Of a stretch of DNA of 64,000 nt, positions 11,750 through 38,545 are shown piece after piece. The first letter of the stretch is position 1; each line of letters starts with the position of its first letter. The DNA is taken from NCBI GenBank assembly GCA_027600665.1, contig JADGJL010000001.1, positions 1 through 64,000 of the forward strand. Reading direction: 5' to 3'. A program made the position numbers and the translations under genes. The notes under the pieces are model-generated. The model was not told the origin of the DNA. It saw only the letters and a program-made list of their open reading frames with translations, and ran no database searches. The DNA comes from Irineochytrium annulatum (Eukaryota > Chytridiomycota > Chytridiomycetes > Chytridiales > Chytridiaceae).

Positions 11750-14692
<2,943 letters not shown>

Positions 14693-20754: not shown

Positions 20755-20774
20755 AAGAGGGCCAATGCCCTCTT
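20755..20774 (-). terminator. Terminator at the end of the fibre operon
   Basis: The perfect eight-base stem AAGAGGGC with its complement has a four-base loop and is followed by a long T run on the minus strand. It lies 16 bases after the last gene of the array. Confidence 0.85.
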
Positions 20775-20789
20775 TGATAGTTAACTCAT

Positions 20790-22748
20790 TTATAAAATGT
20801 AAAAATACGCTTGATTCCCTGGACTCTTCACAATCACTGTGGTCACTAAATCACTGGCATCCCGTTTACGGATACTTGTGATCGAACCTAACTCCTCATT
20901 CGCAATAACTCTAGGTAGGACATAAGCGGCCAGATCAGGCTTGGAAATTGTCATTTCAGTAGCCATATCCACAATCTGTCTCACATCTACCGTAGACTGC
21001 ATATCCTTCCACTCTCGCACCTGAAGATAACCATCCAAGTATTCTCTTTCTTTGATACTAATGTGGCCATCCATTACATCCATATACTTGACCTCAATGC
21101 TCGAAAGTACATCAGGTCTGGAGATATATAATTGCCCAGGCTGTTCTTCCAAATAAGGAATCTCAAGACTCGCTGCCCTTTCATCATGATCTAATGCTCT
21201 GACTTGAAGAACACTATTCAGATCAGGTTTATTAACCTTAATCTCCGAAATGACAGTCGAATCACCGTCGTACATGACCGTTAGCAAAGCCCCCAACGTT
21301 GAAGTTGCTTTTGTATAATTGGAGACATCCAATGAAGCATGTAGATCAGGTATGGATACAATTAAACTCGTATCCCGTCCATCATCGAACAACTGTGATA
21401 TCGTTAACGTGCTGACCAGAGACATTTGTCTATCTACTGTAATAACTGAAGGTAAGTCAGGATGAGAAACTGCGATTTCTACAATTTTTGCGTCGTCCAG
21501 ACCTGTTCTAACCGCAAGATTACCGTCTGTATCCTTAGTTGTTCGTATAGCAGTAATGAACTGCGAATGAAGCTCGGGTTTAGAAACAGCAATCCATGTT
21601 TCCTTCTCTTCTGTTCTACTTTCAACAATAGAAATGTTCGAATCCAGTTCTGCATCTATACGTTTAGCTATAGTCAGGTCTGCATCCAGTTCCGGACGGC
21701 TGACCGCGATGACTTGAGGTATATCATGATGCATGTGATCCTCATAGCGGTGGATGTACAACTGAGATTTGAGCCAATCCAGCCCAATATCACTGTTTAC
21801 AACTAACGATGAAGCTATATCTTTGCGACCTGCACCATAAATAAAAATTTCACTTCTGATTTCGGTTCGACCGATGGAATAGATCTGAGAAGTGATATAT
21901 TTAATTTGCAAAACAGGTGGTTTGGAAGACTCGCGAGTGTTGAAATATATCGGCGTGTTACCTCTAGACTGAATAATCATTCCAACATTCGAAAGCATGC
22001 CTTCTCTCCACATGTGAAGTAAAGCCATCATATCAAACTCAACATAACGTTCAGTCGTATTAATAACATAACTGGACGATAAGAGCTGAATGGAATGAGG
22101 TCTGTTTGCATACGTAATTCCGTACTCCCGCCACAATGTATCCGGCTGATGCAGCTCAATATGTGCTCCAGGTGCCAGGGTTCCTGTATAATACAACCTC
22201 AATTTAGCTTTTTCCAAATATAACAGATCAGGTATTCTGGTATCCAAATCACCGAAGTGTATGAATGATTCGAATTGTTCCATCTCGTCGCTGCCGATCA
22301 TCATGCGCTGTGTATCACCAAAGTTGATTGTCTGCAGGTGAGTTTGACTTCGTGTGGTTGCATCAGCAACAGGCTTTAGGTCAACAGTCACACGAGGTGC
22401 TTCCAATAATTCGTATTTGCCGTGCGCACGGTTATGTGGCCGAACGTATAGCATGCCTTCAAGATCAACTTTGGATGCCGCTTGAATGGTTGCGTTCAGA
22501 TCTCCTTGCGACTTGTACATCACATATAGTGAATTGGTTAATTCCTGTGAACGTCTGACACGTACGGATACAGTAGAGACGATCTCGGATACTTTTCTTG
22601 TAGCAGCTATTAGGGTCGAAGACAGTTCTTCATCGACTTGATTGTATAGGATATACTTTGCTGCAAAACGATTTTCCGGACTTTTAATATGTATAACACT
22701 ATCTAATAGAGTCTCCTCGTTATTAATTCCACTCACTTCCTGTCTCAT
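20790..22748 (-). CDS. DNRLRE-domain fibre protein with repeated PDL strands
   Basis: 652 residues. Around residues 140-290 there is a DNRLRE-type beta-sandwich (NFGDTQRMMIGSDEMEQF, then KAKLRLYYTGTLAPGAHIELH and WREYGITYANRP), a domain found in bacterial surface and phage tail proteins. The C-terminal 350 residues are a run of short beta-strand units in which the motif hxVSxPDLxxxhxV recurs (VSRPELDADLTI, VSKPELHSQFIT, VSHPDLPSVITV, VNKPDLNSVLQV, ISKPDLAAYV). That looks like a fibrous shaft. There is no signal peptide and no cell-wall anchor. It is the last gene of the array, 11 bases after the previous one, with a weak ribosome site. The role is inferred to be structural. Confidence 0.7.
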   Translation of the reverse strand: MRQEVSGINNEETLLDSVIHIKSPENRFAAKYILYNQVDEELSSTLIAATRKVSEIVSTVSVRVRRSQELTNSLYVMYKSQGDLNATIQAASKVDLEGMLYVRPHNRAHGKYELLEAPRVTVDLKPVADATTRSQTHLQTINFGDTQRMMIGSDEMEQFESFIHFGDLDTRIPDLLYLEKAKLRLYYTGTLAPGAHIELHQPDTLWREYGITYANRPHSIQLLSSSYVINTTERYVEFDMMALLHMWREGMLSNVGMIIQSRGNTPIYFNTRESSKPPVLQIKYITSQIYSIGRTEIRSEIFIYGAGRKDIASSLVVNSDIGLDWLKSQLYIHRYEDHMHHDIPQVIAVSRPELDADLTIAKRIDAELDSNISIVESRTEEKETWIAVSKPELHSQFITAIRTTKDTDGNLAVRTGLDDAKIVEIAVSHPDLPSVITVDRQMSLVSTLTISQLFDDGRDTSLIVSIPDLHASLDVSNYTKATSTLGALLTVMYDGDSTVISEIKVNKPDLNSVLQVRALDHDERAASLEIPYLEEQPGQLYISRPDVLSSIEVKYMDVMDGHISIKEREYLDGYLQVREWKDMQSTVDVRQIVDMATEMTISKPDLAAYVLPRVIANEELGSITSIRKRDASDLVTTVIVKSPGNQAYFYIL

Positions 22749-22759
22749 TGTATTGAGAG

Positions 22760-24835
22760 CTATACACGGTCTGCTGTGACCTTCATTTCAAAATTACCAT
22801 TTGGGTTCGGCTTGGCATGAATATCCGTTGCGATGCGAATATAAAAATCGATGCTATCCTCCGGTTGGATCAGGCCATAGGTCAGATAATCGATCGGAAG
22901 AAACGGATCGGCCTGTCTGGATAATTGGACATCAACCCCATCCGTTTCGAATTTTTTATCCATCTCCAGGTATACATGATCCACAGCGTATCCAAGCAAG
23001 TTTTTGATTCTGACTTTCTTCGTTAACGTCGTCTGTCCGGCAATAATCACCCCATAATCGAGTTGTTTCAAAATTCCGCCAAAGGTATCTGACAGAAAGT
23101 CTCCAGACTCATCCATAAACATTAATCCTGAATACGATCCGATAAACTTGGTTTCCCAGGAGTCTACGGCACCCCAATAATCCTGAAATTCAACCTTCAG
23201 CGTATTCTCTACGCCAAAATGTACATTTCTCTCGTCGATATTGAGTTCGATATTGAATGGAGAAGTTGCTAGTCGTGTAAAATTGCCATCCGCCGGATAA
23301 TACGTTTTACCGTTCAACAACACGCGGTACTTAACCTTGCCTTGATCTGCATCACCCAGCACACCTGTAAGTTTGTTACCAGAGAAGGTCAGGTCAATTG
23401 TGGCTGTGGTGTTTAACAGTTGCAGTGACATATCTCTAAACTCCACTGCATGTCGCGGTGCATCAACGACCATCTTCACTTCATCAAGCAAATAGCTGTT
23501 TTCATAATGCTTGCTGCTATCGAAGTAGTAGGAAATTCGTGTCAAACCGATTAAATCCTTTTCAGGAATAGCGTTGAGTATCTCCAGATCCATTCCTTTT
23601 CTTTTGAATAGGGTGGTATTCTGGATATCCATATTAATCCACTTGTTGAAACGGTATGTCTTCCATGTGAGCCCCGAATCGAACGAAGCAGCCATTCTTA
23701 ATATACCTTCCGGAATGTTCTCCGTTACTTTCGTAGCGACAACCTTTTTCACGTCTCCATATAACGCTATGTCTGTTGGTTGCACAATTAATTGCTCAAA
23801 CGGTAGCGCGTCATACGTTAGCATCATGTCCCGATTACCGGCAATAACCTCTTCATCATTCGTCCACGTAACCACGTCAAAATCTCCCTCAAGTTCATCC
23901 AATGGGGAGTAGTTAGCCGTTATATTTAGTTCAGCTGACGTTTTATAGGGATCGTCTGTGTAATATAAAACGTCTACACTATCACCTAATTCATCATAGA
24001 TGGTAAAAGGTTCAGTTTCAATTGTAATCGTTGATTCGGTTTGGTTGGGGTCATCAGTGTATTCAATAATTTTGATCTCTTTGTCTTCCCATTCTTCGGC
24101 TAGGGTAAAGGGTTCGGTTTCAATGTTGAAGGATGCTTCTGTTTTGGCTGGGTCGTCTGTATAGTAGCATAGTTCTACTTCACCTTGAAGTTGCGCCCAT
24201 GCGGATTCAGGGATAGTTGAGATGTCGTCCATTCCGTATATGAGATAGTCTTGTTCCTTGAGTGGTTCTATTAGGGACAACTGATTAAATTGATTATTGG
24301 AATAATTTAAAAAGCCCCCATCGTGTTTCACTAATAAATGTTCGGATGCAGTGTACATATCTAATTCATTTATTTGGAAATAAGTTGCACCACTGTATTG
24401 ATATGAAACCAAATACAGTCTATACATCAGATATAAATTATTTTTAGCTATTGAAAATTCCTGATATCCTCCGCTTGATACCCACAAATCTTTACTGAAA
24501 TTAGTTTTTTCATCAAGAATAATCCAATCCACTCCATTATTCGATGCTTCAAATCTCCATGATTTTGGTGCTGTTCCTACTTGCCATTGATCGGTTGCTG
24601 TACCACTTAATACACTTAGCGAGTATTTAATAACCTTTTTAGGTGTGTCTAAATTATACCTAAGCCATTGATTTGTTTGCACTGTACCGCTACTATATTG
24701 ACTGAGCCAAGCATCGCCCCTATTTTTATTAAATCCCCTCCAAGCGGAACGCGTTGAATCATAGACGCTACTTGCACTCGAAATACCTGAAGGGGTAGTA
24801 TTAGATGTCATTCTTGGAATTACACTAATCACCAT
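22760..24835 (-). CDS. Tail-fibre-like protein with discoidin domain and 36-residue repeats
   Basis: 691 residues. Residues 5-162 form a discoidin-like (F5/8 type C) carbohydrate-binding domain (TTPSGISSASS, WLRYNLDTPKKVIKYSL, PKSWRFEASNNGVDWIILD). Residues 170-215 carry the FLNY...YGMDD module seen in neighbouring proteins. Residues 219-328 are about three repeats of some 36 residues built on YYTDDPxKTxAxFNIETEPF. The rest (330-691) is beta-rich, resembling phage distal tail or baseplate proteins. There is no signal peptide. AAAAGGAGATGATTC precedes the ATG. A structural, sugar-binding role is inferred. Confidence 0.7.
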   Translation of the reverse strand: MVISVIPRMTSNTTPSGISSASSVYDSTRSAWRGFNKNRGDAWLSQYSSGTVQTNQWLRYNLDTPKKVIKYSLSVLSGTATDQWQVGTAPKSWRFEASNNGVDWIILDEKTNFSKDLWVSSGGYQEFSIAKNNLYLMYRLYLVSYQYSGATYFQINELDMYTASEHLLVKHDGGFLNYSNNQFNQLSLIEPLKEQDYLIYGMDDISTIPESAWAQLQGEVELCYYTDDPAKTEASFNIETEPFTLAEEWEDKEIKIIEYTDDPNQTESTITIETEPFTIYDELGDSVDVLYYTDDPYKTSAELNITANYSPLDELEGDFDVVTWTNDEEVIAGNRDMMLTYDALPFEQLIVQPTDIALYGDVKKVVATKVTENIPEGILRMAASFDSGLTWKTYRFNKWINMDIQNTTLFKRKGMDLEILNAIPEKDLIGLTRISYYFDSSKHYENSYLLDEVKMVVDAPRHAVEFRDMSLQLLNTTATIDLTFSGNKLTGVLGDADQGKVKYRVLLNGKTYYPADGNFTRLATSPFNIELNIDERNVHFGVENTLKVEFQDYWGAVDSWETKFIGSYSGLMFMDESGDFLSDTFGGILKQLDYGVIIAGQTTLTKKVRIKNLLGYAVDHVYLEMDKKFETDGVDVQLSRQADPFLPIDYLTYGLIQPEDSIDFYIRIATDIHAKPNPNGNFEMKVTADRV

Positions 24836-24882
24836 GAATCATCTCCTTTTGAAATTATAAATCAAACAATCATTTCACATGC

Positions 24883-26586
24883 TTATGTGATTGTTGTTTT
24901 ATTAATTGGCGTTTTAGTTGTATCGATTTTTTGCGTAAATACTTTTCCTGAACCTAAGTTTTCCAAAGAATTTTTGACCAATGTTAATTGATCAAAATCA
25001 GTGTCCGTTTGAATATCGAAAAGTTTATACATTCCATAATTAAGAAAACTAGATTCGCTAAGTGTTGGAATTTCTATAATAGCTTTATCTTCTTTATTCA
25101 ATAGCTCGAACTCATTTACTCGAATACTTGATCCTCCATTATTCGAAATAACAAAAAGTCGATAATAGAGGTATGCCGTATTATTGGAAATTTTGTAAAT
25201 TCTCTTTTCATTGGATACCCAATCAGAAACGTTTAACTGAGTGTCTAAATCAAAAAATGTGACCCCATCATCAGAACCTTGCAACTTAAAACTTTCAGGG
25301 GCTAATGTAATAGAACTGTTAGTCAAGGCATATGAAGAGATAACAACAGGATTTGTGAATTTATAACGAAGCCATTGATCCCCGATCATGCTACTACTTG
25401 TTTGCCAATAAGATGATAGGTCTCCGTCAAATGCTCTCCATTCATTATTCGTAGAGTTTGTGCTTGAACTTAACACTTCCCCCATAGGTAAGGTATTGGT
25501 AGTCATTTTGGGAACTTGATTCAAACTCTCTTTAACCATTAGAGAGTAGTATTTATCTTCTGATGAAATCAAGAATTTATTGTTATATAATATTGTAACT
25601 TTATATATATTTATAAATGGAGTTCTACTTGAAGCAAGTAGCATATAATCTAAATTAGGATAAAATTTAGCATCTTTCCCTTGTAGGAAATCTCCTGTTG
25701 GAAAATTATCTTCTAACTTATTGAAATTCTCATTTTCAACTTTATATAGACTAGCAAATGGAGTAGCGTCATGTGCTACCACTAGGTATTTTCCATTTTC
25801 AGAAAATGACGTACTGTTTGCAGAAGAAGGAGGTAATTTTTCTGGATTCGGAAGTTTATCAAAGTTTCCATTTTCTATCTTGAAATTTATAAGATAGGGA
25901 GCATTTGGAGATGCTATGCTCAGAAGCTTACCATCTGGAGAGAACGAAGATCCATTACTCACACCTGTCGTTGGTAGACCAGCTAACCCCATCGTTTTAA
26001 TGTATGAATCTACCTCTTTCTTAAATATTGTAGCAGAGGTTCCATTGGAATAACCGTGGTTAACGCATATATAAGTGTTATCTTTTGAAAAGCTAATTCC
26101 GTAAACAGATTCGGAGAAACCTAGGTTTATTCTATTAAACGTATCTTCTGATTCTACTTTATATAATACAAATTTTTCTGTTCCTGCTGTTGCACCTGCG
26201 GCTAGATATTTGCCATCTGGAGAAAATGAAAGAATGTTAACTCCAATAGGAATTCCACCTACTGGATCAGGGACTTTAGTGAAACTATCGCCATTCCTTT
26301 TGTAAATGATCAGATAAGGACTTCCCCCTGCACTTGCTACAGCTAAAAATTCACCATCTGGAGAAAATGAAGGGCTTCTACCTATAGAATTAGGTAAACC
26401 TCCAGTTGGATTAGGTAATTTTGTAAATGTGTCGTTATTACGTTTATATAAAGTTATAAAGGGTGAGTTATAATGCGTAACCGCAACATAATTTCCATCT
26501 GGAGATATGTCTACTCCAGTAGTCTGACCAGTAGGTAATCCAGTAGTTGGGTTAGGTAATTTTTCTAAAATTAAATCATGAATCAT
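24883..26586 (-). CDS. Seven-bladed propeller protein with discoidin domain
   Basis: 567 residues. The N-terminal 330 residues hold seven WD40-like beta-propeller repeats, each with a strand of the type SFSPDGKYLAxA followed by an x-IYKxxxDxFxKL strand. Residues about 345-510 are a discoidin-like domain (NTLPMGEVLSSSTNS, WLRYKFTNPVVISSYAL, PESFKLQGSDDG). The last 50 residues are the shared C-terminal module (SSFLNYGM ... GSGKVFTQKIDTTK). No signal peptide is present. The gene is AT-rich compared with the flanks. A propeller head on a fibre-like protein suggests a binding tip; I infer this from layout only. Confidence 0.7.
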   Translation of the reverse strand: MIHDLILEKLPNPTTGLPTGQTTGVDISPDGNYVAVTHYNSPFITLYKRNNDTFTKLPNPTGGLPNSIGRSPSFSPDGEFLAVASAGGSPYLIIYKRNGDSFTKVPDPVGGIPIGVNILSFSPDGKYLAAGATAGTEKFVLYKVESEDTFNRINLGFSESVYGISFSKDNTYICVNHGYSNGTSATIFKKEVDSYIKTMGLAGLPTTGVSNGSSFSPDGKLLSIASPNAPYLINFKIENGNFDKLPNPEKLPPSSANSTSFSENGKYLVVAHDATPFASLYKVENENFNKLEDNFPTGDFLQGKDAKFYPNLDYMLLASSRTPFINIYKVTILYNNKFLISSEDKYYSLMVKESLNQVPKMTTNTLPMGEVLSSSTNSTNNEWRAFDGDLSSYWQTSSSMIGDQWLRYKFTNPVVISSYALTNSSITLAPESFKLQGSDDGVTFFDLDTQLNVSDWVSNEKRIYKISNNTAYLYYRLFVISNNGGSSIRVNEFELLNKEDKAIIEIPTLSESSFLNYGMYKLFDIQTDTDFDQLTLVKNSLENLGSGKVFTQKIDTTKTPINKTTIT

Positions 26587-26668
26587 AGCGTTCGCTCCTT
26601 TCTATCTCATTTTCAATTGAGAGAATGAGTTTTAGAATTTTATTTCACTTTATTTTTAACTTTGCTAA

Positions 26669-27802
26669 TTACAATGTAATCATATCTATCCTTTGCTTTG
26701 ACATATCAATCGTGTGTTCAAAGGTTTTGCCTGAACTTAACACAGCAGAATTGCTATTGTATAATTTCATCTTATCTGCTAACACAGACAGATTTCCAGA
26801 CTCCATTCCATAACTTAAAAATGTTGATTCGTTTCTATTGGAAAAATAACTCACTATGGACAAACCTAGCTCCATCATTTCCATTTCGCCTATGCTTACA
26901 TATGAGGTGTCGCCGTTATTAGATGTTACATTAATACGATACATAAAAAACTTCGTTTTATTTTTGAATATATATGATCTTTTCTCTCCTGTTGACCAGT
27001 TAGTCTCATTTGTTCGCGTATCCAGTACAGTCCAGTTTGTATCATCATTTGATCCTTCAAATGTCCATGATTTAGGTGTTCTTGTTGTGCTATTGTTGCC
27101 AGATTTAATTGTATATGCTTGTATCAATGTTGCTGATTGGAAAGTATATTTTAACCAACCAGTAATTGCATTTGATAGCCATCCATAACTGTCATCAACT
27201 CGATCAAATGCTTTCCATGCATAATAAGAAGAATATGTCGTACTCGCTTCTGCTTTTCCTGATGGCAGTGTATAGTTAGTCATAACTGGGACTAGATTTT
27301 CTCGTGGTGAACCCTGCTTAATGCTGAACAATTTATCACCAGATGAAAGTAAGATTTTATTTAATGTCATCCTCTCAGCATACCACTCACCATCAACCCT
27401 TCCATTGAAGCCAGTGGAAGCTGCGTCTAGTACAAATCTATACTTTCCAGCCTCTAATGTTTCAGTGAAACGCATCCATGTTAAAGTTGTCTGCTTAGAT
27501 ATATCTAAGTGCATAGCTGTTAAGTCAATATTGTAGCCTACTCCGTCATGCTTAAAAATCTTTAGTCTCTGATTGTTACTATTACTCCAAGAATAATATC
27601 TGTGGAGTCTGAATCTATCCAAAAATTCTATCTCAACCCATGAAGTAGAGTCATTCCAGTAAAATACTGTGGTTGTGTTCCATGCATTTGGTGTTGTTCC
27701 ATCAAAAAGACCAGAAGGACTACCATTTTGTGCACTACCACCAATTAGACTATATCTTGCTTCAGTATTAACTTCGTATTTAGGCTTTGCGCTACCAGCC
27801 AT
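26669..27802 (-). CDS. Fibre-tip-like protein with discoidin domain
   Basis: 377 residues. Residues 1-165 look like a beta-sandwich of the carbohydrate-binding kind (NAWNTTTVFYWNDSTSWVEIEF, LHRYYSWSNSNNQRLKIF). Residues 170-320 are a discoidin-like domain close to those of the neighbouring genes (PSGKAEASTTYSS, PKSWTFEGSNDDTNWTVLDT). The last 50 residues are the shared C-terminal module (STFLSYGM ... SSGKTFEHTIDMSK). AGAAAGGAAATG precedes the start. It follows an internal terminator, so its level may be lower than that of the upstream genes. Confidence 0.68.
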   Translation of the reverse strand: MAGSAKPKYEVNTEARYSLIGGSAQNGSPSGLFDGTTPNAWNTTTVFYWNDSTSWVEIEFLDRFRLHRYYSWSNSNNQRLKIFKHDGVGYNIDLTAMHLDISKQTTLTWMRFTETLEAGKYRFVLDAASTGFNGRVDGEWYAERMTLNKILLSSGDKLFSIKQGSPRENLVPVMTNYTLPSGKAEASTTYSSYYAWKAFDRVDDSYGWLSNAITGWLKYTFQSATLIQAYTIKSGNNSTTRTPKSWTFEGSNDDTNWTVLDTRTNETNWSTGEKRSYIFKNKTKFFMYRINVTSNNGDTSYVSIGEMEMMELGLSIVSYFSNRNESTFLSYGMESGNLSVLADKMKLYNSNSAVLSSGKTFEHTIDMSKQRIDMITL

Positions 27803-27847
27803 ATAAACATTTCCTTTCTAAGTGAAATCATTATTTCAAAACAAAAA

Positions 27848-27873
27848 GAAGTAGAGCATTTACACTCTACTTC
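27848..27873 (-). terminator. Internal terminator inside the fibre operon, after the 1155-residue gene
   Basis: The perfect nine-base stem GAAGTAGAG with CTCTACTTC has an eight-base loop and is followed on the minus strand by TTTTTG. The stop codon of the upstream gene is inside the hairpin. Confidence 0.75.
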
Positions 27874-30800: not shown

Positions 30801-31334
30801 AGCACCCGTAACCATATAGTTTCTTTGAGTGAATCCTGTATAGCTGATGATTGGTTCAGTATCGTCATATCTCGTCCATCCATCTTCAGGAGCCGTTATA
30901 ACAGCTCCAACACTTCTAGTCATGTACCCATCTTCACCTAAATCGACAGCATCTAAAATTAGAGTTTTGCTGTCTACTGTTTTAATTTGAACAATATGTT
31001 TACCTTGGGATAGATCTTTTTTTTCAAAGACTAAGGCTTTGGTTCTGGAAGTTGTTGAGTCTTCATTGATTATTCCAACGTTAGTTCCATCAATAATAAC
31101 TTGAGCCGTTGTTGTTCTACCTGAATACAAACCACCTATAATTCTTACTTTCGTTCCATAAAAAGTAAAGCTCATCGTTGAACCACTGGTCGAAGTATAC
31201 TTTGCACTTCCATTATAGTTTCCAGCAAGTGTTTCTGTTGACCATATACCTGTGTACACAATCATGTTATTCGTATCATCGTACCTCTGCCATCCACTTT
31301 CTGGTACAGCTAATTGATCTCCAAATACTGCCAT
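27867..31334 (-). CDS. Large modular adhesin/tail-fibre-like protein with four tandem domains
   Basis: 1155 residues, the largest product of the array. Residues 5-571 are four tandem copies of a roughly 140-residue beta-sandwich, each running from xVPESGWxRYD to LDAVDIDxDGYxxR. Residues 572-900 match the whole protein of the preceding gene (31338-32039), including SWDSIN and NEWDKYIVNS...SGFRPLL, but are interrupted by an inserted discoidin-like domain. Residues about 920-1085 are a further discoidin-like domain (TTPSGIASASSIN, PKSWTFEGSNDAVNWAVLDT). The end is the shared C-terminal module (DTFINEGMDDL ... GLGKLFKRSIDLKK). No secretion signal, sortase motif or S-layer domain is seen. The role is inferred as a multivalent glycan-binding fibre. 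Confidence 0.72.
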   Translation of the reverse strand: MAVFGDQLAVPESGWQRYDDTNNMIVYTGIWSTETLAGNYNGSAKYTSTSGSTMSFTFYGTKVRIIGGLYSGRTTTAQVIIDGTNVGIINEDSTTSRTKALVFEKKDLSQGKHIVQIKTVDSKTLILDAVDLGEDGYMTRSVGAVITAPEDGWTRYDDTEPIISYTGFTQRNYMVTGAYEGKSSYNADGSTVGEVVFSFVGTKVRIISSSTNTSRAQSVSISIDGDVETFTPRTSVIQAQTIVYEKIGLPYGTHTIKIFDFKGVTSGAAAFGLDAIDIDSDGSLVRYIGSEVTVPESGWSRYDADSLEHSGTDWKTVANTTGRVFEGGSVMYSNVIGNYIKFSFTGKKIRLVAEYGSLYDPNVEVSIDGVVEYINLSTTSSSYQPQRIVLEKTNLSEGSHEVVVKKVSGTGNFHIDAVDVDVNGYIVRPIGSQLTTPDAGWKRYDNSSAMKYEGLGWVSATGDPNTYAGTAHYISLNGASSNSIKFNFYGTKLRIIDLYWTNRVDNVTIEIDGKVSTWNPNNPANKYQILVFEVSGLEKGLHEVKLSTTSLSGTFSLDAVDIDLDGRMFHPDEVTSIAELEVGKRIRCHYIAARNSAGVFSRLGEETFDFIGSSGSPIPMGDFYWIMVEDWNKRKFLVADRNIQNAISWDSINKEGYVFGVESTTIFKTYNKTPYLTSASDVYSVTGIGNSLTNEDPWRAFSLNGWWGSYAGTGLILDCKRRVKFGEIKVTAYYGANMASVIDVYGSDNNVDYNLIKSCQKSSWSNSEQATFYFDEPVGYRYYKIMKTTQVSGSNAARLTLELSYSEKVDNNNIFKVRLLTGGINSSDKDNEWDKYIVNSTLNGTIIAGDNNVWNWGGIASLSSTSNTSTNRAQRGNSISGYGAVATTLTNATSGFRPLLKVEILPMDRSFINHEGSYKKYLPIEFIESNDNAISVMTSNTTPSGIASASSINSASYDAYQAFNGIQDERYGWASLTPVSWLQYQFPTKKIIYKYSLSMRTNSTYYVSGEQPKSWTFEGSNDAVNWAVLDTQTDNATLVRGSIEEYRINNSDAYTYYRVNVSANQGNATITVIAELKMFEKTQKGGVVGWNTTSRTLPSEDTFINEGMDDLSVLDRKNEVLVQTMTSNGSLGLGKLFKRSIDLKKYFEITTISVK
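29622..31322 (-). repeat. Four tandem domain-length repeats within the large fibre gene
   Basis: The repeats encode residues 5-142, 143-288, 289-431 and 432-571. They are diverged at the protein level, not recent DNA duplications: conserved positions are GW-x-RYD near the start, GTKVRI in the middle and LDAVDID near the end. Confidence 0.8.
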
Positions 31335-31337
31335 CTA

Positions 31338-32039
31338 CTACAACTCCCTATATTCAAATAATGGTCGAAATCCCCAAGTGGGATAAGAACCACCACTTGC
31401 AGAGTAGTTTATGTCACTCCACTGTGCTCTCGTATTACTACCTCTTCCAATGCGCTGATTATTAGATGCTGTTGTAGTCGAATTTCCAGCTTTGTCTCTC
31501 CATGTGCCATAATTCGGTGTTTCTTTGCACCAGCTATAATTACTTAAATGATGAAAAACATCATCTAGAATTTTTCCTGGCAGAATCTTGTTTACAGGAA
31601 AATTAATGAGATACTTGTCCCACTCATTAATTGTGGGAAAGGCTCCAAAACCCAAATCGGCATTTGACTTATTTCCATTTGAATCGGCATATAATACACC
31701 TCCGCTTAAAGAGCGAATCGAACCCGATTCAAATGTAACGCCTTCTATCCAATTTTTAGAGTTGAGTTGATCCCATGTGATAGAGTTGAAAATCATTCTA
31801 TCGGAAATGAGTAATCCCTTGTCTACCTTAATAAAGTAAAACGTTCCACCCACTCCTGCTGTAGTTCCTAAACCGGCTAATGGTATTTCTCCGCTATTCG
31901 CAGGAGCGCCAGACCCAAAATTATATACTGTAGTTAGTGCGATAGTACTTCCTCTGACTGCACCACATTTGATATAATCCCCAATCTCCATGTCCTCCAC
32001 ACGCTCTCTCAACTGCCCTGTCGTGGCTGGAACTGCCAT
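31338..32039 (-). CDS. Fibre-associated protein sharing a domain with the large fibre gene
   Basis: 233 residues. The sequence aligns along its length with residues 572-900 of the next gene product: an N-terminal ERVEDMEIGDYIKCGA segment, then KGLLISDRMIFNSITWDQLN, NEWDKYLINFP and a C-terminal SGGSYPTWGFRPLFEY. A domain ending in GFRPLL occurs in bacterial phage-tail-like and surface proteins. No signal peptide is present. It lies only four bases from both neighbours, so stoichiometric production is likely. Confidence 0.65.
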   Translation of the reverse strand: MAVPATTGQLRERVEDMEIGDYIKCGAVRGSTIALTTVYNFGSGAPANSGEIPLAGLGTTAGVGGTFYFIKVDKGLLISDRMIFNSITWDQLNSKNWIEGVTFESGSIRSLSGGVLYADSNGNKSNADLGFGAFPTINEWDKYLINFPVNKILPGKILDDVFHHLSNYSWCKETPNYGTWRDKAGNSTTTASNNQRIGRGSNTRAQWSDINYSASGGSYPTWGFRPLFEYREL

Positions 32040-32043
32040 AAAT

Positions 32044-32616
32044 TCACCCCTTGCTCACTCTGATTCTATCCACTTTTTTAAATTTCGTATTTTCAACCTT
32101 CTGACGTAATACTGTCCCTGTTGGAGTATCCGCTGCTCGTTCCATGTTCAATTGATATATTCTCTTTAAGCCTAGTGAACCCGAGTCACTTTCAATAAAA
32201 GGATTACTGTATTTTCCCTTCTCCTTGAAATCGTCTATGTAGAAATTCGAATATTCTCTCTCAGCTGCAATCTCAATTTTCAACTTCGCATACTTTGCTG
32301 GAGATTTAGGAGCAGTTACATCTGTTACGATCTCCTCATACGCCCCCCACTCAAAACCATCCTCAGATGTGCTCCAGTAGATTTTGTATGATGCTCCACC
32401 CATTACGTCTACACTTGCAGCTACACCTTTAAACGAAGCGATCTTATCCTGAATCCGAATGGGAGTGGATTCCCAAGATCCATTAGCTGGATAGATTGAA
32501 TTCCCGTCCGCATCTTGGCTCAACTCTCTTAGTTTCAACTTTTGATCCTCATATATGGTATCTTGAAATACACCAACCGATAGATCTATCTCTAGTGCAA
32601 TTTCTTGAATTGCCAT
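32044..32616 (-). CDS. Tail-structure-like protein of unknown function
   Basis: 190 residues, beta-rich, with a central segment of the type seen in baseplate-associated beta-sandwiches (SYKIYWSTSEDGFEWGAYEEIV, KYAKLKIEIAAEREYSNFYIDDF). The C-terminus (SGSLGLKRIYQLNMERA) vaguely recalls the shared terminal module of the other fibre genes. AGGTGGTGATATT precedes the ATG. I do not recognise a named family. Confidence 0.6.
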   Translation of the reverse strand: MAIQEIALEIDLSVGVFQDTIYEDQKLKLRELSQDADGNSIYPANGSWESTPIRIQDKIASFKGVAASVDVMGGASYKIYWSTSEDGFEWGAYEEIVTDVTAPKSPAKYAKLKIEIAAEREYSNFYIDDFKEKGKYSNPFIESDSGSLGLKRIYQLNMERAADTPTGTVLRQKVENTKFKKVDRIRVSKG

Positions 32617-32649
32617 AATATCACCACCTATCTCATGTCAAAATCCAAC

Positions 32650-33270
32650 TCAACGAATATCCCAGTTTATGATCCCTGCATGATTTGCCTTCAGAGGAGC
32701 TACGATTTGATCTATGACAAATCCATTTTTACGAATAACCAATTGCCCAGGCAGGTCCTGATTGGAGGTAATTTTAATTTGGAGAAAGGCCGTTTCTTTC
32801 AAAGGCAGGGAACAAATACATTGAAAGTTAATCTGCACATCATTCAAATTCATTGTTTTTTTGTATCCGAAGTTAAAACATTCAATCGTATTATTGAAAG
32901 CCCCCGAACTCCCAGGGCCTGAGTGCCCACTCATATTCACATCTGAAGAAACATTCTTGAATTGAATGATGTCATTGTATAGAAAGGTCCTGCCCGTTAA
33001 AGGGTATTCTTGCTCTTCACATACGTAAGATACAGAGTACCGATCCGCATTAATATGAAAAACACCGTTGGCAACGTTGTGATACACGTGAGATCCTTGC
33101 CCGATCAATCCGAAAGAGACCAACTTTTCTTTGTTAATATTATAAAAACTGTTTGATTGTTGAGTCTGCAGATCAAATTCGCTTAAATAAGTACCATCAT
33201 AATAATCTGCAATCCATACATAAGCTTGACATACAGGTGAGCGCGTAAATTGTGTATTACCTAGAATCAC
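32650..33270 (-). CDS. Structural protein of unknown function
   Basis: 206 residues from the GTG at 33270, which has a strong AAAGGAGG seven bases upstream. A longer frame to 33390 would run through the internal terminator and overlap the upstream gene, so I reject it. The product is beta-rich and contains several Cys residues; the CQAYVWIADYYDGTYLSEFD and TIECFNFGYKKTMNLND segments stand out. There is no signal peptide. The family is not recognised; position in the array suggests a structural part. Confidence 0.6.
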   Translation of the reverse strand: MILGNTQFTRSPVCQAYVWIADYYDGTYLSEFDLQTQQSNSFYNINKEKLVSFGLIGQGSHVYHNVANGVFHINADRYSVSYVCEEQEYPLTGRTFLYNDIIQFKNVSSDVNMSGHSGPGSSGAFNNTIECFNFGYKKTMNLNDVQINFQCICSLPLKETAFLQIKITSNQDLPGQLVIRKNGFVIDQIVAPLKANHAGIINWDIR

Positions 33271-33285
33271 AGGACTTCCTCCTTT

Positions 33286-33318
33286 TAATAAAAAGGACAG
33301 GCTGCAATAGCCTGTCCT
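33286..33318 (-). terminator. Internal terminator inside the fibre operon, after the 180-residue gene
   Basis: The perfect ten-base stem AGGACAGGCT with AGCCTGTCCT has a five-base loop and is followed on the minus strand by TTTTTATT. It lies 17 bases after one stop and ends about 15 bases before the next start. Confidence 0.85.
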
Positions 33319-33334
33319 CATGATTGTTTCTTTT

Positions 33335-33877
33335 TTACACGTATCGATAAGAGATACGTTTTTTGAATTGTTGCTTGCCACTTTTTGCATTCAGCGGTAC
33401 TACACATTGAATGGATAGGGTCACATAGTTACCAGCCGCATCTTGAGGATTTCCATTATTACTCACGCCCAAGATTTCTTTCGGCCCGGGTGCAAATGGT
33501 GTTGCATAAGCGGTTCCTGTATGGTCTTTAGTTGTCTTGCCTGTTGTTCCGATGGGTTTAGAGAAATCCTTGCCAATTCGTGAACTTTCTTCTTCCAGGT
33601 CTGTCTCGCCCAAGGAGTCAACCTGAACGTGGAACCAGTTATTCTTCACCACTTCTACATCATGAGCCTCTGTGTCACCAGTACCACCAGTCATATCTCG
33701 CGTAGTAATCGTGCAATCTTCCATTTTAGATACGTCCGAAGCACCGTTCTTATTGTTCCAAACATTGAAGATAAAAATATCACTTTTGCTATCTGCATCA
33801 ATAACCTTGTAGTCGAACGGTGCACTAATCTCATTACTATGTGTAGCATCCATCCATGAAATAATCGGTTGTGTCAT
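33335..33877 (-). CDS. Putative major structural protein of unknown family
   Basis: 180 residues, rich in Asp, Thr and Gly, with no Cys-rich or membrane segment. It starts MTQPIISWMDATHSNEI and ends with a basic beta-strand KQQFKKRISYRYV. A strong AAAGGAGATGG site and an intrinsic terminator directly behind it suggest that it is made in higher amounts than the downstream genes, as for a tube or shaft subunit. That role is an inference; I do not recognise the family. Confidence 0.6.
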   Translation of the reverse strand: MTQPIISWMDATHSNEISAPFDYKVIDADSKSDIFIFNVWNNKNGASDVSKMEDCTITTRDMTGGTGDTEAHDVEVVKNNWFHVQVDSLGETDLEEESSRIGKDFSKPIGTTGKTTKDHTGTAYATPFAPGPKEILGVSNNGNPQDAAGNYVTLSIQCVVPLNAKSGKQQFKKRISYRYV

Positions 33878-33897
33878 TATAATCCATCTCCTTTGAT

Positions 33898-34659
33898 TTA
33901 TGTTCTGATTGTTAATTGAATCGTAAGATGTTGTATATTTGAACCTGCTTTGATGATGTTGATTCTGAAAATATCTCCAGCCTCCACTTTTTTCATCTCA
34001 AATGTAGCCTTACCATCATCTTGATGTTGAAGTGCCTCAAACTTCAGTGAACTTCCCATCACATCCTGCCAGTGAATGAGATCCTTGGAATGTTCAATTC
34101 TGATCTCAGTTGCGGTATCTCCAGAAACCCCACAATAGCCCTTTACATGTACAATCTCGCCATCGAATGGAAAGGGGGCTAAAATTCCCAGTACTTCCGG
34201 GTACACCCGTGATTCTTTGCAAAAGACCATAACGCGATCCTGTACTTCCAACGGAATCTCATTTAATTTCAGATGTTCAGCTGTACTCATGAGCCCATCC
34301 ACATCGGAATTAACAACCTGAAGGTTTTGACCAAATACATCAATCTCTACCCATGTCTTCCCATCGTAACGATATCGTTTGCCATCCTTGTACGTTTGTA
34401 CCGTCCAGCCTATTTCAGGAGAAGGGTACTGCATACTTAACTCCTCAAAATTAGCAACTGGACTCTGATAAACAAGTCGAGTCGTTTGATAAGCCTCTTT
34501 TGCTTTTCCGGCAGCCTGCATGGCTTCGCTAGCAGCATCCAGTGCCCGCCTGATAGCAAGTTCAATTTCGCCAGATTCCCCAGGCTGCCCTGGGCTACTA
34601 TGTTTGACTGCTTCTCTAATTAAAGACTCTACGTGTGCTAAAGTTATCCCATTAGACAT
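33898..34659 (-). CDS. Phage-tail-like protein, first structural gene of the array
   Basis: 253 residues. The N-terminal 65 residues are a helical stretch (IELAIRRALDAASEAMQAAGKAKEAYQ) following a short collagen-like SPGQPGESGE. Next comes a segment often seen in phage tail proteins, GWTVQTYKDGKRYRYDGKTWVEID near residues 80-105; the C-terminal half is beta-rich. No signal peptide is present. The ribosome site TAGGTAGGTG is weak and follows the stop of a possible 12-codon leader ORF by about ten bases. Confidence 0.62.
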   Translation of the reverse strand: MSNGITLAHVESLIREAVKHSSPGQPGESGEIELAIRRALDAASEAMQAAGKAKEAYQTTRLVYQSPVANFEELSMQYPSPEIGWTVQTYKDGKRYRYDGKTWVEIDVFGQNLQVVNSDVDGLMSTAEHLKLNEIPLEVQDRVMVFCKESRVYPEVLGILAPFPFDGEIVHVKGYCGVSGDTATEIRIEHSKDLIHWQDVMGSSLKFEALQHQDDGKATFEMKKVEAGDIFRINIIKAGSNIQHLTIQLTIRT

Positions 34660-34670
34660 AATTCACCTAC

Positions 34671-34709
34671 CTAAGCGTTATGTAGCTTTCTTTGTAAGAC
34701 AGTTTCCAA
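34671..34709 (-). CDS. Possible 12-codon leader ORF
   Basis: A TTG at 34709 has a very strong ribosome site (AGGGGGAGG) seven bases upstream and opens METVLQRKLHNA, then TAG. This ribosome site serves no other start codon, and the next gene begins 11 bases after the stop. The ORF overlaps one arm of an inverted repeat. It may be a leader peptide coupling translation to the fibre operon, or chance. Confidence 0.3.
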   Translation of the reverse strand: METVLQRKLHNA

Positions 34710-34741
34710 GTTGATACCTCCCCCTAACTAGGAAACCTGTC
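34698..34741 (-). promoter_or_regulatory. Inverted repeat in the leader of the fibre operon
   Basis: GACAGGTTTCC and GGAAACTGTC (one bulged base) flank about 23 bases that hold the AGGGGGAGG ribosome site. As RNA this would form a stem presenting or hiding the site; as DNA it could be an operator. It sits between the polymerase genes and the structural genes. Confidence 0.45.
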
Positions 34742-34800
34742 TCTGGCTTATCATTAAAGAAATTCTTGAACAACCATGCGAAGCATTGCTGTGTCTAGCT

Positions 34801-35559
34801 TTAGAGAAGTTTTCTAATGGGATTAATGCCGTTTTTTTTACATTCCTTGCAGTATTTCATTCGGTTCGATTTTGCCAGCATCCGTTTTCCGCATACAGTA
34901 CAATTTTTAATATTCTCTCCTTTCCAGCGGGAGTACTCCAACACAAAGTCATCGAAGCGAACTAACTGGAAGGCGACCTCACCATACTCCACAGCGAACA
35001 AAACCTGTACATTAGTCGAATCTAAGCGATTACTTTCTTTGAGATACCCTAACTGAATAAGTTTGTACACTAATAGCCCCTGATCTTTTTTGCTTACTGC
35101 CATTTGGGTATCGCCATAGATTTCTTTCCATTGATTATTAATCCAATACGTATCATTTTTATTGATTTGTTTGTTGATCTTGCTATAGACCAGTAAAACA
35201 AAGGCCAATCTCTCAAGTCGTTTACTTTTGAGTCGTTTGATCTTTTGAAGTTCTTCGTGCATTACTGGTACATGATCAATCTCGATTAGGGTGCTCTTGT
35301 TGGCATCCTCCCTTATCTTGATATACTTCTGCGACTGCTTAATGATACGATTGAGGAATGTATCCCACTGGACAGCATTGTAGTCTGGGTAGTATCGGGT
35401 CATAAACTGATTTAATAACGTGTACGTATCTTCGACGTTCTTCCCCTTTTCAAGCCCATATTTAGCTAAACAAATCAACGTTTTGGTTGGCTTCTTATCC
35501 ATGATCCCATGTGCAATGGCCTGCTCGGCATGCTGACGTTCATTCAGAATGATTTTCAA
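34801..35559 (-). CDS. Zinc-ribbon protein coupled to the two-barrel RNA polymerase
   Basis: 252 residues from a TTG at 35559 that overlaps the polymerase stop (TTGA), with AAGGAG eight bases upstream. The last 40 residues hold a C-x2-C-x13-C-x2-C zinc ribbon (NCTVCGKRM ... YCKECKK) followed by a basic tail. The middle part (VSKKDQGLLVYKLIQLGYLKESNR) looks like a winged-helix unit; the N-terminal half is helical. I do not recognise a family. The overlap and the DNA-binding look suggest a partner of the polymerase, such as an initiation or specificity factor. This is inference. Confidence 0.65.
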   Translation of the reverse strand: MKIILNERQHAEQAIAHGIMDKKPTKTLICLAKYGLEKGKNVEDTYTLLNQFMTRYYPDYNAVQWDTFLNRIIKQSQKYIKIREDANKSTLIEIDHVPVMHEELQKIKRLKSKRLERLAFVLLVYSKINKQINKNDTYWINNQWKEIYGDTQMAVSKKDQGLLVYKLIQLGYLKESNRLDSTNVQVLFAVEYGEVAFQLVRFDDFVLEYSRWKGENIKNCTVCGKRMLAKSNRMKYCKECKKNGINPIRKLL

Positions 35560-38276
35560 GGGCGCTGCTCCTTCACATGCATTTGTGTCATTTTAAAGGT
35601 TCTCCCGGCATATTCAATATCGCCGTCCGGGTCTCTCACCGGATAATGGATGATGTGATCATTGCTATGCAACAGATTGCGAATAATCTGATCTCCCGAC
35701 ACATCCCATACAAATTGCTTCGATTTCTCGGCATTTCGATAACACATGTCCACAATCATATTGCACAGATCTTCTTCATTATTACAGATCTCCAGCGCCT
35801 GCTCCTTAAAGCGGGAAACAAACAACTGCCATCGGGCTGATCTTTCTTCCTTCCTCACCTTGCTCTTGCGTAAATTGGTCATATAGCTACGTAGTTCTTC
35901 GTTATGCATCTGATATAATCGTTGAATCTCTTTATAACGAGCTTGGGAGTATTTTTTGGTACTCATCAATATCGTATGATCAAATGGCCTTGCGGTCTGT
36001 TTCAACTTTAACTTGTTGAACTCGTCTTCCACTTGAAGGCATAACCGGTTCATCACGGAAGGTGCCTTGGATACAGGCATTCTCTGTTCATACTGTGCCA
36101 GGAACTGTTCCTGATTCGGTGATAGTTCCTTCTTCGAATACAATTCATCAACAGTCAAGCCAAATAACTGCAAACACTTCTGACTCGTTTTTTCTACATA
36201 GGTGGTATATTCTTTTTTCTGCTCCGGGTCATTGTATATGAAAAAATAAGGCTTCTTATGCGCTACCATTTTCAAGGCTGACTCATCCGTTACCGCAGCG
36301 CGAATATCATACCAGTGTTTCGGCATCTTTTTACATTCAATCCCTTTGGCTTGGTCAATGGCATTTTGCTGATAATGCTGACCACATTGAATTCGGTACA
36401 TCATTTCCTGATATTCTGCACTATGCTCCTCATAATTGGCTAATACATCGAACATCGACGTGATTTTATTGGTTGTAAAACCGATCAGATCTCCAAAGCT
36501 GTCTTTGTTGGCCTGGATTAGATCCTTCTCATCCGGAATTTTTTGGGCTGAAGTTTTCTGCACACATACAATCGCATCAAGCTCCTGAATTGCTCCAAGA
36601 ATCGTTGCGTTATCCGTAGTCAAGACTTGATCACTATCCATATCTGCACCATTCAGAGAATGCGTCGTCGTATCCCATGAATTCAAGATCGTGACCGTAC
36701 TCATATAGCGATACCAATGCTGCATTTCATCTGTATTTTGGAAACGAAGTACCTTGATATTGTTATGACAAGTCATTGGAGCTCTGAAGCAAGCCACGCT
36801 ATTAACATGACGCTCATTCCAATAGCTGGAGTAAAACTCACCTGAACTCAGCAGTCCAGTTAAAGGCATACCAAAAATGCTCTGACACAATGTATAGGGA
36901 TCTCCAGATATAATGCTAAAATTGCCTTTGACTCTCAGCACACCGATCTTGGCTTCATTCATTCGTTTGCGTATTAAGGTATGGATTTTGCTCCGTACAA
37001 AAGGATCATCTATAAGTCGCGGGTCTACCATCAGCCCTTTAATATAATCATCCGGACTATTTCTGTAGTCATTCTCATGAATATGAATTCCTTTGAGAAA
37101 TAACAGTGCCTTGCGATGGTCCTCGCCCAGTACATCTGTAATCGAGTCAATAGTGGGACGAATGAGTTCACCAATCTCGTTATCATCCAATTGAAGCGAC
37201 TGAATGAACTGATAGTTTAAATGACGCTCATCCTCTAATTCTCCGGGTGTAACTTTCGTAACGCTGAACGTGTAGCCATAATAACCGCAACATAACAGGT
37301 AATCATCAATACTGTTATACGAGCTCCATAGTTTGAGCATCGACGTTGTGAGGATCAGATCTACTTCTCGGATATCCACAGGATTACCCCAGGCATCGTC
37401 CACCATATACTTGCCTGCAACTTGATCTGCAAATTCGTGATAATCAAATGTAAATACCATTCCTTTACAGAAGCTATTGCGAATACAAAATCCACTCGGG
37501 ATATATGCATGCCCCAGTTCGGTTGCCCATCGTTCACTAAGTGCAGGAGAGATAAGACCGAATCCGTCACTCATGTTCATTTGAATAGACTCATTTTTCC
37601 TGCGCTCAATGCGAGGGTACTCTGTCTCGGTATCATCAATCTGAATAATGTCCGCTCCAAATTCGGTTATACAATCATGAACAACCAACACACGTTCAGG
37701 ATGTGATACAGGCGTGCTTGTACTACAAGCCAAGGCCTTGTATGCCTCCAGTTTGGCAGGAACCAGTTCTTTATTGGGATCTCTGCCATTATTCAATCTT
37801 TTCTCCAAAAGCGGATGAATATCCTCACTCACATAGATGACCGTCGAACTTTTGGCCCCACCTGTTGTCGCCAATAGCCGCTTGTATTTCTTACCGTTGA
37901 TGGAGAAAGCTTTCGATGAATTCAGCCGATCGTAGTCTTTATTATTTTCAATGACCACCAGCAGGTAATCATCGACAAATTTCAGATTTTTCAGTTCTTC
38001 ATGTCGTTTCTTCATTGTTCTTTTATGCTCGGCATTGGTTTTCAAAACTTTTAATTGCTCTATATCCAGCTTGATTCTAGCCAGATTCTGTTCCCTTTCC
38101 ATGTAGCCTCGAATACGATCTATGAAACGAAACACTTGATGATTTCCTATAGATGCCACTTCTCCATTAACTGTCGCTTCTTGATAAGTAAGATGCAGAT
38201 CATAATCCGCTTTTCTAATTCTGGAAGATGTAATTTTATAAACGTATCTCAATCGATCCTGATATGCATTGCCCAT
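35556..38276 (-). CDS. Single-chain two-barrel RNA polymerase (YonO/QDE-1-like)
   Basis: 906 residues. The features of the single-subunit double-psi-beta-barrel polymerases are readable. MSDGFGLISP lies at residues 235-244, like the DGxGxIS motif of eukaryotic RNA-dependent RNA polymerases. CIRNSFCKGMVFTF follows at 264-277, and VKGNFSIISGDPYTL at 449-463 sits where relatives have the HPGD motif. The catalytic metal-binding triad D-x-D-x-D is at 545, 547 and 549 (NGADMDSDQV). YonO of the B. subtilis SPbeta prophage is a DNA-dependent RNA polymerase of this superfamily. This copy is followed by a zinc-ribbon gene and ten structural genes on the same strand. An AGGGGG site precedes the ATG. The N-terminal 130 residues include a Lys/Arg-rich helical stretch. 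Activity and template are untested. Confidence 0.85.
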   Translation of the reverse strand: MGNAYQDRLRYVYKITSSRIRKADYDLHLTYQEATVNGEVASIGNHQVFRFIDRIRGYMEREQNLARIKLDIEQLKVLKTNAEHKRTMKKRHEELKNLKFVDDYLLVVIENNKDYDRLNSSKAFSINGKKYKRLLATTGGAKSSTVIYVSEDIHPLLEKRLNNGRDPNKELVPAKLEAYKALACSTSTPVSHPERVLVVHDCITEFGADIIQIDDTETEYPRIERRKNESIQMNMSDGFGLISPALSERWATELGHAYIPSGFCIRNSFCKGMVFTFDYHEFADQVAGKYMVDDAWGNPVDIREVDLILTTSMLKLWSSYNSIDDYLLCCGYYGYTFSVTKVTPGELEDERHLNYQFIQSLQLDDNEIGELIRPTIDSITDVLGEDHRKALLFLKGIHIHENDYRNSPDDYIKGLMVDPRLIDDPFVRSKIHTLIRKRMNEAKIGVLRVKGNFSIISGDPYTLCQSIFGMPLTGLLSSGEFYSSYWNERHVNSVACFRAPMTCHNNIKVLRFQNTDEMQHWYRYMSTVTILNSWDTTTHSLNGADMDSDQVLTTDNATILGAIQELDAIVCVQKTSAQKIPDEKDLIQANKDSFGDLIGFTTNKITSMFDVLANYEEHSAEYQEMMYRIQCGQHYQQNAIDQAKGIECKKMPKHWYDIRAAVTDESALKMVAHKKPYFFIYNDPEQKKEYTTYVEKTSQKCLQLFGLTVDELYSKKELSPNQEQFLAQYEQRMPVSKAPSVMNRLCLQVEDEFNKLKLKQTARPFDHTILMSTKKYSQARYKEIQRLYQMHNEELRSYMTNLRKSKVRKEERSARWQLFVSRFKEQALEICNNEEDLCNMIVDMCYRNAEKSKQFVWDVSGDQIIRNLLHSNDHIIHYPVRDPDGDIEYAGRTFKMTQMHVKEQRP

Positions 38277-38545
38277 TCCCGATTCCCCCTGTTGCTTCCT
38301 GTCCTGATTAAATAAATTATAGAGTAGACCCGCGCGACTGACGCAGGTGAACAGGATGATCAGGGGATGAAAAAAGAAGAATATTAGTTCTATTATGGGG
38401 AGAAATTAAAGGGCAATCCGGGTCTTGATTCATTTCAAATCGGCATATTTCCCCTTCTCTAGCACTATGATAAATTCATTTTTAATGATATAGTGGATTG
38501 AAGCGTTTTTTTAAGCTGACATATCTTTTAACGGGGCTGGGATGA
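38277..38545. promoter_or_regulatory. Divergent control region of polymerase gene and 192-residue gene
   Basis: No ORF is supported. An inverted repeat CACTAT ... ATAGTG (38463-38468 and 38490-38495) lies 50 bases before the plus-strand gene. A TTGAAG around 38498 could be a -35 box for that gene. No clear promoter for the polymerase gene could be assigned. Confidence 0.4.

Follow-up and report, generated by a model that had tools for sequence, protein, structure and literature searches.

A Paenibacillus chromosomal island that looks like a reduced form of headless phage-tail islands led by their own RNA polymerase

The stretch of DNA analysed here (the window, 64,000 nucleotides) looks like Paenibacillus chromosome carrying a reduced version of headless-phage-tail islands, each of which is led by its own small RNA polymerase. 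In the reading that we prefer, with a probability of about 0.8, the island descends from a siphophage late operon, belongs with F-type tailocin-like systems equipped with their own polymerase, and is in the window a deletion derivative.

Position and gene content of the island

All twelve open reading frames of the array lie on the minus strand at 20790-38276, as the earlier note had read them. Comparison by eye with empty sites places the island at about 20,745-38,440; in a 13-locus alignment, likewise read by eye, the likeness to empty sites ends near 38,440. An 89-aa gene at 20384-20653 lies outside the island and is found at 7 of the 9 empty sites read. In the order of transcription, the features are as follows.

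38277-38440, minus strand: leader and presumed promoter region of the polymerase gene, within the island; TATAAT at 38316-38321
35556-38276, minus strand: POL, single-chain two-barrel YonO-like RNA polymerase, 906 aa, with D545, D547 and D549
34801-35559, minus strand: ZnP, 252-aa partner with a C-terminal zinc ribbon
34747-34764, minus strand: candidate POL promoter, a motif common to the intergenic regions after ZnP
34660-34740, minus strand: deletion junction, where the tail core and the 5' part of F1 are gone
33898-34659, minus strand: F1, truncated baseplate or fibre-proximal protein, 253 of about 384 aa, relative of Sundance gp041 and YomF (phrog_11315, 5e-67)
33335-33877, minus strand: F2, conserved tail-tip protein, 62% to Sundance gp042 and 29% to phage G gp361
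32650-33390, minus strand: F3, conserved tail-tip protein, relative of Sundance gp043 and phage G gp362
32044-32616, minus strand: F4, tail-tip protein that ends the constant arm (phrog_21223, 4e-34; weakly the minor tail family phrog_3475)
24236-32015, minus strand: variable fibre cassette, comprising F5, F6, F7, F8 and the first ~200 residues of F9
31338-32039, minus strand: F5, fibre protein (phrog_30895, 6e-40)
27867-31334, minus strand: F6, 1155-aa fibre with CE2_N and F5/8-type-C domains
26669-27802, minus strand: F7, fibre with an F5/8-type-C domain
24883-26586, minus strand: F8, fibre with a beta-propeller and an F5/8-type-C domain
22760-24835, minus strand: F9, fibre with a variable N-terminus and a conserved C-terminus
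20790-22748, minus strand: F10, terminal fibre with CBM96 (PF24517, 5e-17), relative of Sundance gp053
20754-20775, minus strand: terminator-like hairpin at the array end, 9-bp stem and T-run

The TATAAT-like box and the leader are kept across 13 aligned loci; the POL leader has no good -35 box, and the region is absent from the promoter-scan hits. The tail- or fibre-like nature that had been proposed for the genes after ZnP is borne out by PHROG matches, reaching 1e-122 for F6, and by the colinearity of F1-F3 with gp041-gp043 of Brevibacillus phage Sundance (38, 62 and 45% identity). Judged on these matches, the phage-tail homology of the fibre array lies far beyond chance. The true start of F3 is probably near 33270, because its long-form relatives are 206 aa long and the extra 5' part contains a terminator-like hairpin. 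Pfam and PHROG scans of the 12 island genes returned no head, terminase or integrase gene, and Rfam gave no match at gathering scores over the window. The assembly that includes the window measures 26.9 Mb in 1082 contigs, against 4.5-9.2 Mb for the Paenibacillus genomes searched, and is possibly a mixed assembly with a Paenibacillus contig.

A two-barrel polymerase with a separate zinc-ribbon partner

The YonO/QDE-1-type motifs that the earlier note had read in the 906-residue protein were confirmed by alignment: D545, D547 and D549 are invariant with YonO and with two further phage relatives, BUCT082 and PMBT24, and the Asp triad is invariant in 51 of 51 members of the POL family. The comparison with YonO and QDE-1 that had been proposed upheld the claim also at the level of structure, since a two-barrel fold is predicted for POL, the nearest folds being RDR2 and QDE-1. 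As modelled, POL is a two-barrel polymerase of the YonO/QDE-1 type in one chain. Its identity to YonO is 23%. Pfam searched with POL alone returned no family, the RdRP family being matched by 12 of the 51 members, and PDB searched by sequence gave only chance matches for POL alone and none for the family profile.

The nearest folds, together with the name RNA-dependent RNA polymerase given to some relatives by annotators, would suit an RNA-dependent enzyme serving silencing or defence. The operon layout with tail genes speaks against this, as does YonO, which in the consulted sections of PMC5467207 is DNA-dependent in vitro and drives the SPbeta late genes; we consider an RNA-dependent POL improbable.

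The coupling to a zinc-ribbon protein was also found as described earlier: the ZnP gene overlaps the POL gene by 4 bases, and ZnP carries CxxC-x13-CxxC at residues 220-240, while POL has no CxxC at all. A ZnP homologue adjoins POL in 36 of the 39 distant loci described below. In two-protein comparisons only, residues 156-240 of ZnP from the long-form locus LS1 match YonO 732-819, CxxC-CxxC included, at E 6e-8, and residues 202-240 of the window ZnP match the YonO C-terminus at E 3.4e-7. This domain is fused in YonO and separate here, which suggests that the two proteins work together. ZnP may be pictured as a putative promoter-recognition or elongation factor.

The same site in related genomes

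Contigs taken at one genome per species provided 45 loci, of which 6 share neighbouring genes with the window and 39 are distant. The search for the same gene order in other Paenibacillus genomes, as the earlier note had suggested, found an orthologue of at least 78% identity in 12 of 75 genomes of the genus, always between mtnA and a 192-aa gene (38546 in the window). From the coordinates, the gap between the flanking genes is 32.6-37.4 kb in four long forms (G002, G005, G004, G058) and 16.8-20.9 kb in eight short forms (G060, G006, G017, G015, G014, G049, G001, G003). In the other 63 genomes the flanking genes lie near each other in 43, with less than 4 kb between them in 39; they are at least 12 kb apart or on different contigs in 14, and one match is missing in 6. 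Wider gaps without an island orthologue measure 4.4 kb in G073, 6.6 kb in G022, 7.0 kb in G023 and 18.2 kb in G078. Alignment of seven close-flank genomes showed the site without the island. Distant POL matches (at most 32% identity) occur in 14 further genomes of the 75, and that of G037 lies in a phage-like locus with HU and terminase. Separately, the mtnA-flanked site of G078 (contig C151, about 298,400-316,600; L103) carries a different 18-kb insertion that lacks POL and has genes unlike those of the island, so the site accepts other insertions too.

These comparisons bear on the possibility that the array is an arbitrary slice of an SPbeta-like prophage present elsewhere in the same genome, which the earlier note had kept in view. 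Colinearity with the tail-tip genes of Sundance and of Psychrobacillus phage Perkons would be expected of such a slice, but the window's assembly has a single POL match and no tail-tube or hub match, and the same locus with its flanks recurs in 12 genomes. On these grounds the slice of a complete prophage was rejected, and we give it almost no credence.

Long forms encode a headless tail

In the locus of Paenibacillus sp. LS1, POL and ZnP are followed by relatives of Sundance gp028, gp029, gp030, gp031 and gp034. Next come a tape measure of 2182 aa containing an SLT domain, a hub of the YomG type (1172 aa), Dit-like genes and a PAAR match too weak for the Pfam cut-off; after these stand full-length F1 (384 aa), F2-F5, fibres, F9, F10, a few small ORFs and mtnA. 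SZ31, P. polysaccharolyticus BL9 and G058 agree with this layout, so that all four long forms have tail tube, tape measure, YomG-type hub, Dit and weak PAAR in roughly the Sundance order. By homology, the long forms appear to hold all of a non-contractile tail but no genes for terminase, portal, capsid or integrase: none of these was matched in the ORF lists of LS1, SZ31 and BL9 or by homology in G058, and no sheath was matched by PHROGs on 10 proteins or Pfam on 19. The PHROG runs used 10 LS1 and SZ31 proteins, with LS1_16-19 covered via their window counterparts F2-F5, and the test for head genes consisted of tblastn against genes of SPBc2, Perkons, PMBT24 and Sundance at E 1e-4, plus reading of the ORF lists in five distant loci.

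PHROG places three LS1 tail genes under "head and packaging": LS1_04 and LS1_06 are labelled "virion structural protein" and LS1_12 "head decoration" (9e-85). LS1_06 is the tail tube, since its profile, built from 12 sequences, matches two tail-tube sequences of the PDB (8k98 and 9jgh groups; E 1.6e-25); LS1_12 is a relative of Sundance gp037, which is likewise annotated as head decoration. The long-form hub shows weak side matches to minor head proteins. Pfam revealed neither holin nor endolysin among the LS1 proteins scanned.

Omega of the tail genes among LS1, SZ31 and G058 is 0.07-0.21, so selection appears to maintain the headless tail; a value of 0.83 for LS1_08 with BL9 is an artefact of dropped saturated dS. 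The four long forms have no confirmed broken genes, the first residues of the G058 hub being in another frame. A transposase-like gene (HTH_38/rve) lies inside the fibre cassette of the LS1 locus (L054, 10924-11922).

Exchange of the fibre cassette

Comparison of the window with G060, a genome of the same species, gave 99.45% identity in the polymerase arm, through to the end of F4, and 98.5% in the other arm, which begins inside F9; the 7.8-kb cassette that separates the two has no more than short, scattered matches. In the 12 locus comparisons the arms align wholly or nearly so, and less in BL9 and, for F1, in the long forms. The bases shared with any of the 12 other loci amount to at most 13% for F7 and 6% for F8; F6 reaches 71%, and F5 is complete in one other locus. 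This is the manner in which receptor-binding modules evolve.

Candidate promoter and proposed working of the islands

A motif of approximately TTTTCTTATTRTGAAAG was found, with no prior pattern, in the stretch after ZnP of 32 non-redundant loci. Its information is 11.25, compared with 8.68-9.24 in 12 shuffled sets, the same sequences having served for discovery and scoring; 7 of the 32 sites, including that of BL9, score below 10 bits. The window copy at 34747-34764 (13.3 bits) is the top promoter candidate within the island, and the best match of the 64 kb, 14.3 bits at 39671, lies outside it. The self-contained expression unit proposed in the earlier note is in this respect plausible, as the top candidate falls within 34660-34800, the very stretch suggested there as a transcription template. 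The block around the window motif aligns across short and long forms. The fit is poor in LS1 and BL9, where the matrix chooses other places (10.4 and 4.1 bits); the motif is the top match of the stretch in L020, L018, L028 and L016, and L043 has two stronger copies further on.

Terminator-like sites number 12 in the scanned 18 kb against 9.9 expected. Two such hairpins lie inside the array, at 33293-33319 between F2 and F3 and at 27848-27873 after F6, and a dedicated polymerase might read through them.

We propose that the island goes back to the late operon of an SPbeta/Sundance-like siphophage, from which the genes for head, packaging and integration were lost while the polymerase and the whole tail stayed; the result would have been a tailocin-like system of the non-contractile (F) type that brings its own RNA polymerase. 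Host RNA polymerase would transcribe POL and ZnP, ZnP would guide or assist POL at a promoter just downstream of its own gene, and POL would transcribe the remaining genes as a single long late operon. The long form would make a tail without a head, fitted with an exchangeable set of fibres and probably lethal to related bacteria. The window would have lost the genes for tail tube, tape measure, hub and Dit, together with the 5' part of F1, in one deletion; with the tail core deleted and the promoter candidate kept, only truncated F1 and F2-F10 could be made. Sequences and models directly show the two-barrel fold, the anatomy of the headless tails in the relatives, the deletion common to the short forms, purifying selection and the exchange of the cassette, whereas the role of ZnP, the use of the promoter, the formation of particles and killing are inferred.

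Deletion, selection and decay in the short forms

The window island contains no tail tube, tape measure or hub. The earlier note had seen in it either a domesticated SPbeta-like fragment or an undescribed surface or extracellular structure; comparison shows that it was not originally fibre-only and that it arose by deletion from a kind of headless-tail island which four related genomes still have in full at this site. The observation that only receptor-binding or structural genes accompany the polymerase is correct for the window, but it reflects the lost tail core. The junction between ZnP and F1 is identical in the window and all 8 short-form genomes, which is most simply explained by one ancestral deletion. 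Likeness of the short-form F1 to the 384-aa protein begins at residue 144, or at 177 in G017, where F1 is broken. The short forms are interspersed among the long ones on the POL tree, which points to a probable exchange of alleles by recombination; a single deletion also needs recombination between lineages.

Mean omega in the short set, calculated without G060 as a genome of the window's own species, is 0.086 for POL, 0.154 for ZnP, 0.151 for F1, 0.064 for F2, 0.125 for F3, 0.219 for F4 and 0.199 for F10, to be compared with 0.039 for mtnA and 0.170 for the flanking gene g38546. Broken genes, checked in POL, ZnP, F1-F4 and F10, occur in 3 of the 8 short forms: POL, F3 and F4 in G006, F2 and F4 in G003, and the POL C-terminus, F1 and F4 in G017. 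"Partial" flags on F3 and F9 mostly mark start or cassette differences.

A tail-tube homologue is present in none of the 8 short-form genomes and is missing from the window's assembly, which leaves no source in trans for a tail of this type, and help to the short form from another tail was rejected as an explanation. The hub likewise has no match in the window's assembly; as a query it was matched in part in G014, in G003 and in G060, there with 32% over 865-1169 and in two weaker places.

Two alternatives within the headless-tail-island reading describe what the short form now is. It may be a decaying relic that became functionless after the deletion and is being lost, its gene order and low omega reflecting recent common descent and import from intact relatives. 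The absence of a tail tube, the three genomes with broken genes and the lack of the island at this site in many related genomes are all in keeping with decay. It accounts less readily for the five short forms unbroken in the genes checked, for omega of 0.06-0.22 across these genes, for the short-type F1, which occurs only in short forms (13 loci) and still has omega 0.15, and for a cassette replaced within one species while the arms are 98.5-99.5% identical. We put decay at just short of an even chance. Alternatively, the short form may be functional and yield a fibre-only product, for instance soluble or surface-bound carbohydrate-binding proteins or decoys made by POL on demand. The omega values, the unbroken genes of the same five genomes, the exchange of the binding cassette, the retention of the stretch with the promoter candidate and the terminator-like hairpin that closes the array would all be expected of such a unit; an F1 without roughly its first 140 residues, and breakage in 3 of 8, would not. 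We regard a functional short form as a reasonable possibility, though one on which we would not rely.

Relation to known systems

YonO-like polymerases and F-type tailocins are each already known. YonO of SPbeta resembles POL in being a single-chain two-barrel enzyme with an Asp triad, encoded ahead of late structural genes, and YonO-dependent late transcription forms one operon that starts upstream of yonK (Forrest et al. 2017, PMC5467207). The islands differ from SPbeta in that the zinc ribbon is a separate protein, head genes are absent and the location is a fixed chromosomal one. The tail and fibre genes are alike in order and sequence to those of Sundance and Perkons, which are complete phages. 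The head genes of Perkons separate its polymerase from its tail, and Sundance has no POL match at E 1e-3.

F-type tailocins, such as the F-pyocins of Pseudomonas and the Listeria particles of this type, known as monocins, resemble the long forms, which have a headless, apparently non-contractile tail cluster with variable fibres. The long forms differ in having their own two-barrel RNA polymerase and an SPbeta/Sundance-type tail, and the window itself is without a tail. In the consulted portions of two tailocin reviews no dedicated polymerase is named for F-type tailocins, and a passage of one review lists "RNA polymerase", with no details, among the regulatory genes of clostridial R-type tailocins. 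The PBSX-like defective phages, among them the Brevibacillus laterosporus particle, are also chromosomal phage-derived antibacterial particles of Gram-positives; as far as the consulted text of PMC9406221 describes it, the B. laterosporus system has a contractile sheath and a terminase gene, unlike this island, and the terms RNA polymerase and YonO are absent from the main text of that paper.

None of the literature matches listed describes a YonO-type polymerase that belongs to a tailocin or an island. As far as those matches go, the pairing and its spread are new, and so are the separate zinc-ribbon factor, the candidate promoter and the derivative reduced to fibres. The consulted sections of PMC5467207 note YonO-like genes in main genomes, guess at special gene sets, and leave open both the role of chromosomal YonO-like polymerases and the need for promoter factors. 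The islands suggest one such role, that of heading headless-tail operons, and the question of promoter factors becomes testable, as SPbeta has the counterpart of the ZnP C-terminus fused to YonO, and a candidate promoter motif occurs at the same place in many loci.

Distant loci and a possible wider class

The 39 distant loci comprise 17 headless, 14 phage and 8 unclassed loci (L012, L019, L024, L035, L038, L039, L040 and L047, several of them short contigs). Tail genes directly follow ZnP in the 17 headless loci, with uneven match strength: phrog_4051 and/or phrog_2729 are the first genes in L018, L021, L025, L030 and L041, and L021, L025 and L041 were called headless from these PHROG matches; L020, L026, L029 and L043 have one or two tail matches of 22-30% after ZnP, and L031, L033 and L048 one weak tail match each (20-21%) together with likeness to L030. 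In the phage class, terminase is found in 12 of 14, and L032 and L049, with no terminase in the available stretch, were placed by HU, yonJ or integrase. The control, L023 of P. ferrarius, has POL, ZnP, HU, terminase and capsid ahead of relatives of these tail genes.

Both flanks were read for five headless islands of 18.2-30.2 kb, in P. fonticola (L013), P. pinihumi (L042), CAVE-418 (L016), Frisingicoccus (L020) and [Clostridium] aerotolerans (L030); from their N-termini, we take the flanks to be ordinary chromosomal genes. Lysis genes are found in L018 (ELLD endolysin and Hol44-family holin), L025 (ELLD), and L043, L021 and L041 (Amidase_3). A quick tree of 53 polymerases has long branches and represents intron-split polymerases by their 5' piece only; on it the headless or phage label needs to change six times, so the head module was lost repeatedly with polymerase and tail retained, or the change has also run in reverse.

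The islands also point to a class of tailocins that have a polymerase of their own, in Firmicutes from several habitats; cultured Paenibacillus and gut or faecal assemblies are among the sources of the loci. We advance only tentatively, and as a rather doubtful extension, the view that YonO-type two-barrel polymerases with a split zinc-ribbon factor are the dedicated transcription engines of widespread, repeatedly evolved headless-tail weapons in Paenibacillaceae and Lachnospiraceae, and that the window is a selected, POL-driven, fibre-only derivative that moves between lineages and swaps its cassette within species.

The POL genes of L042, L044, L045, L038, L039 and L046 are interrupted directly after the middle Asp codon of the triad (codon 547), and those of L041, L047 and L045 near codon 641. 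The L046 insert (11627-11900) matches a group I intron model with 46.8 bits (E 7e-11; gathering score 50), the L042 insert with only 18.7 bits, and some inserts hold frames that by eye resemble homing endonucleases. In L012 (14482-22525, Anaerovorax), POL and ZnP precede a 1965-aa protein (phrog_10385) and an ORF that, by its motif, is presumably RHS-like, in place of a clear tail operon. Two phage-class loci carry tRNA genes just downstream of the ZnP homologue, at 14992-15210 in L044 and 15320-15681 in L045.
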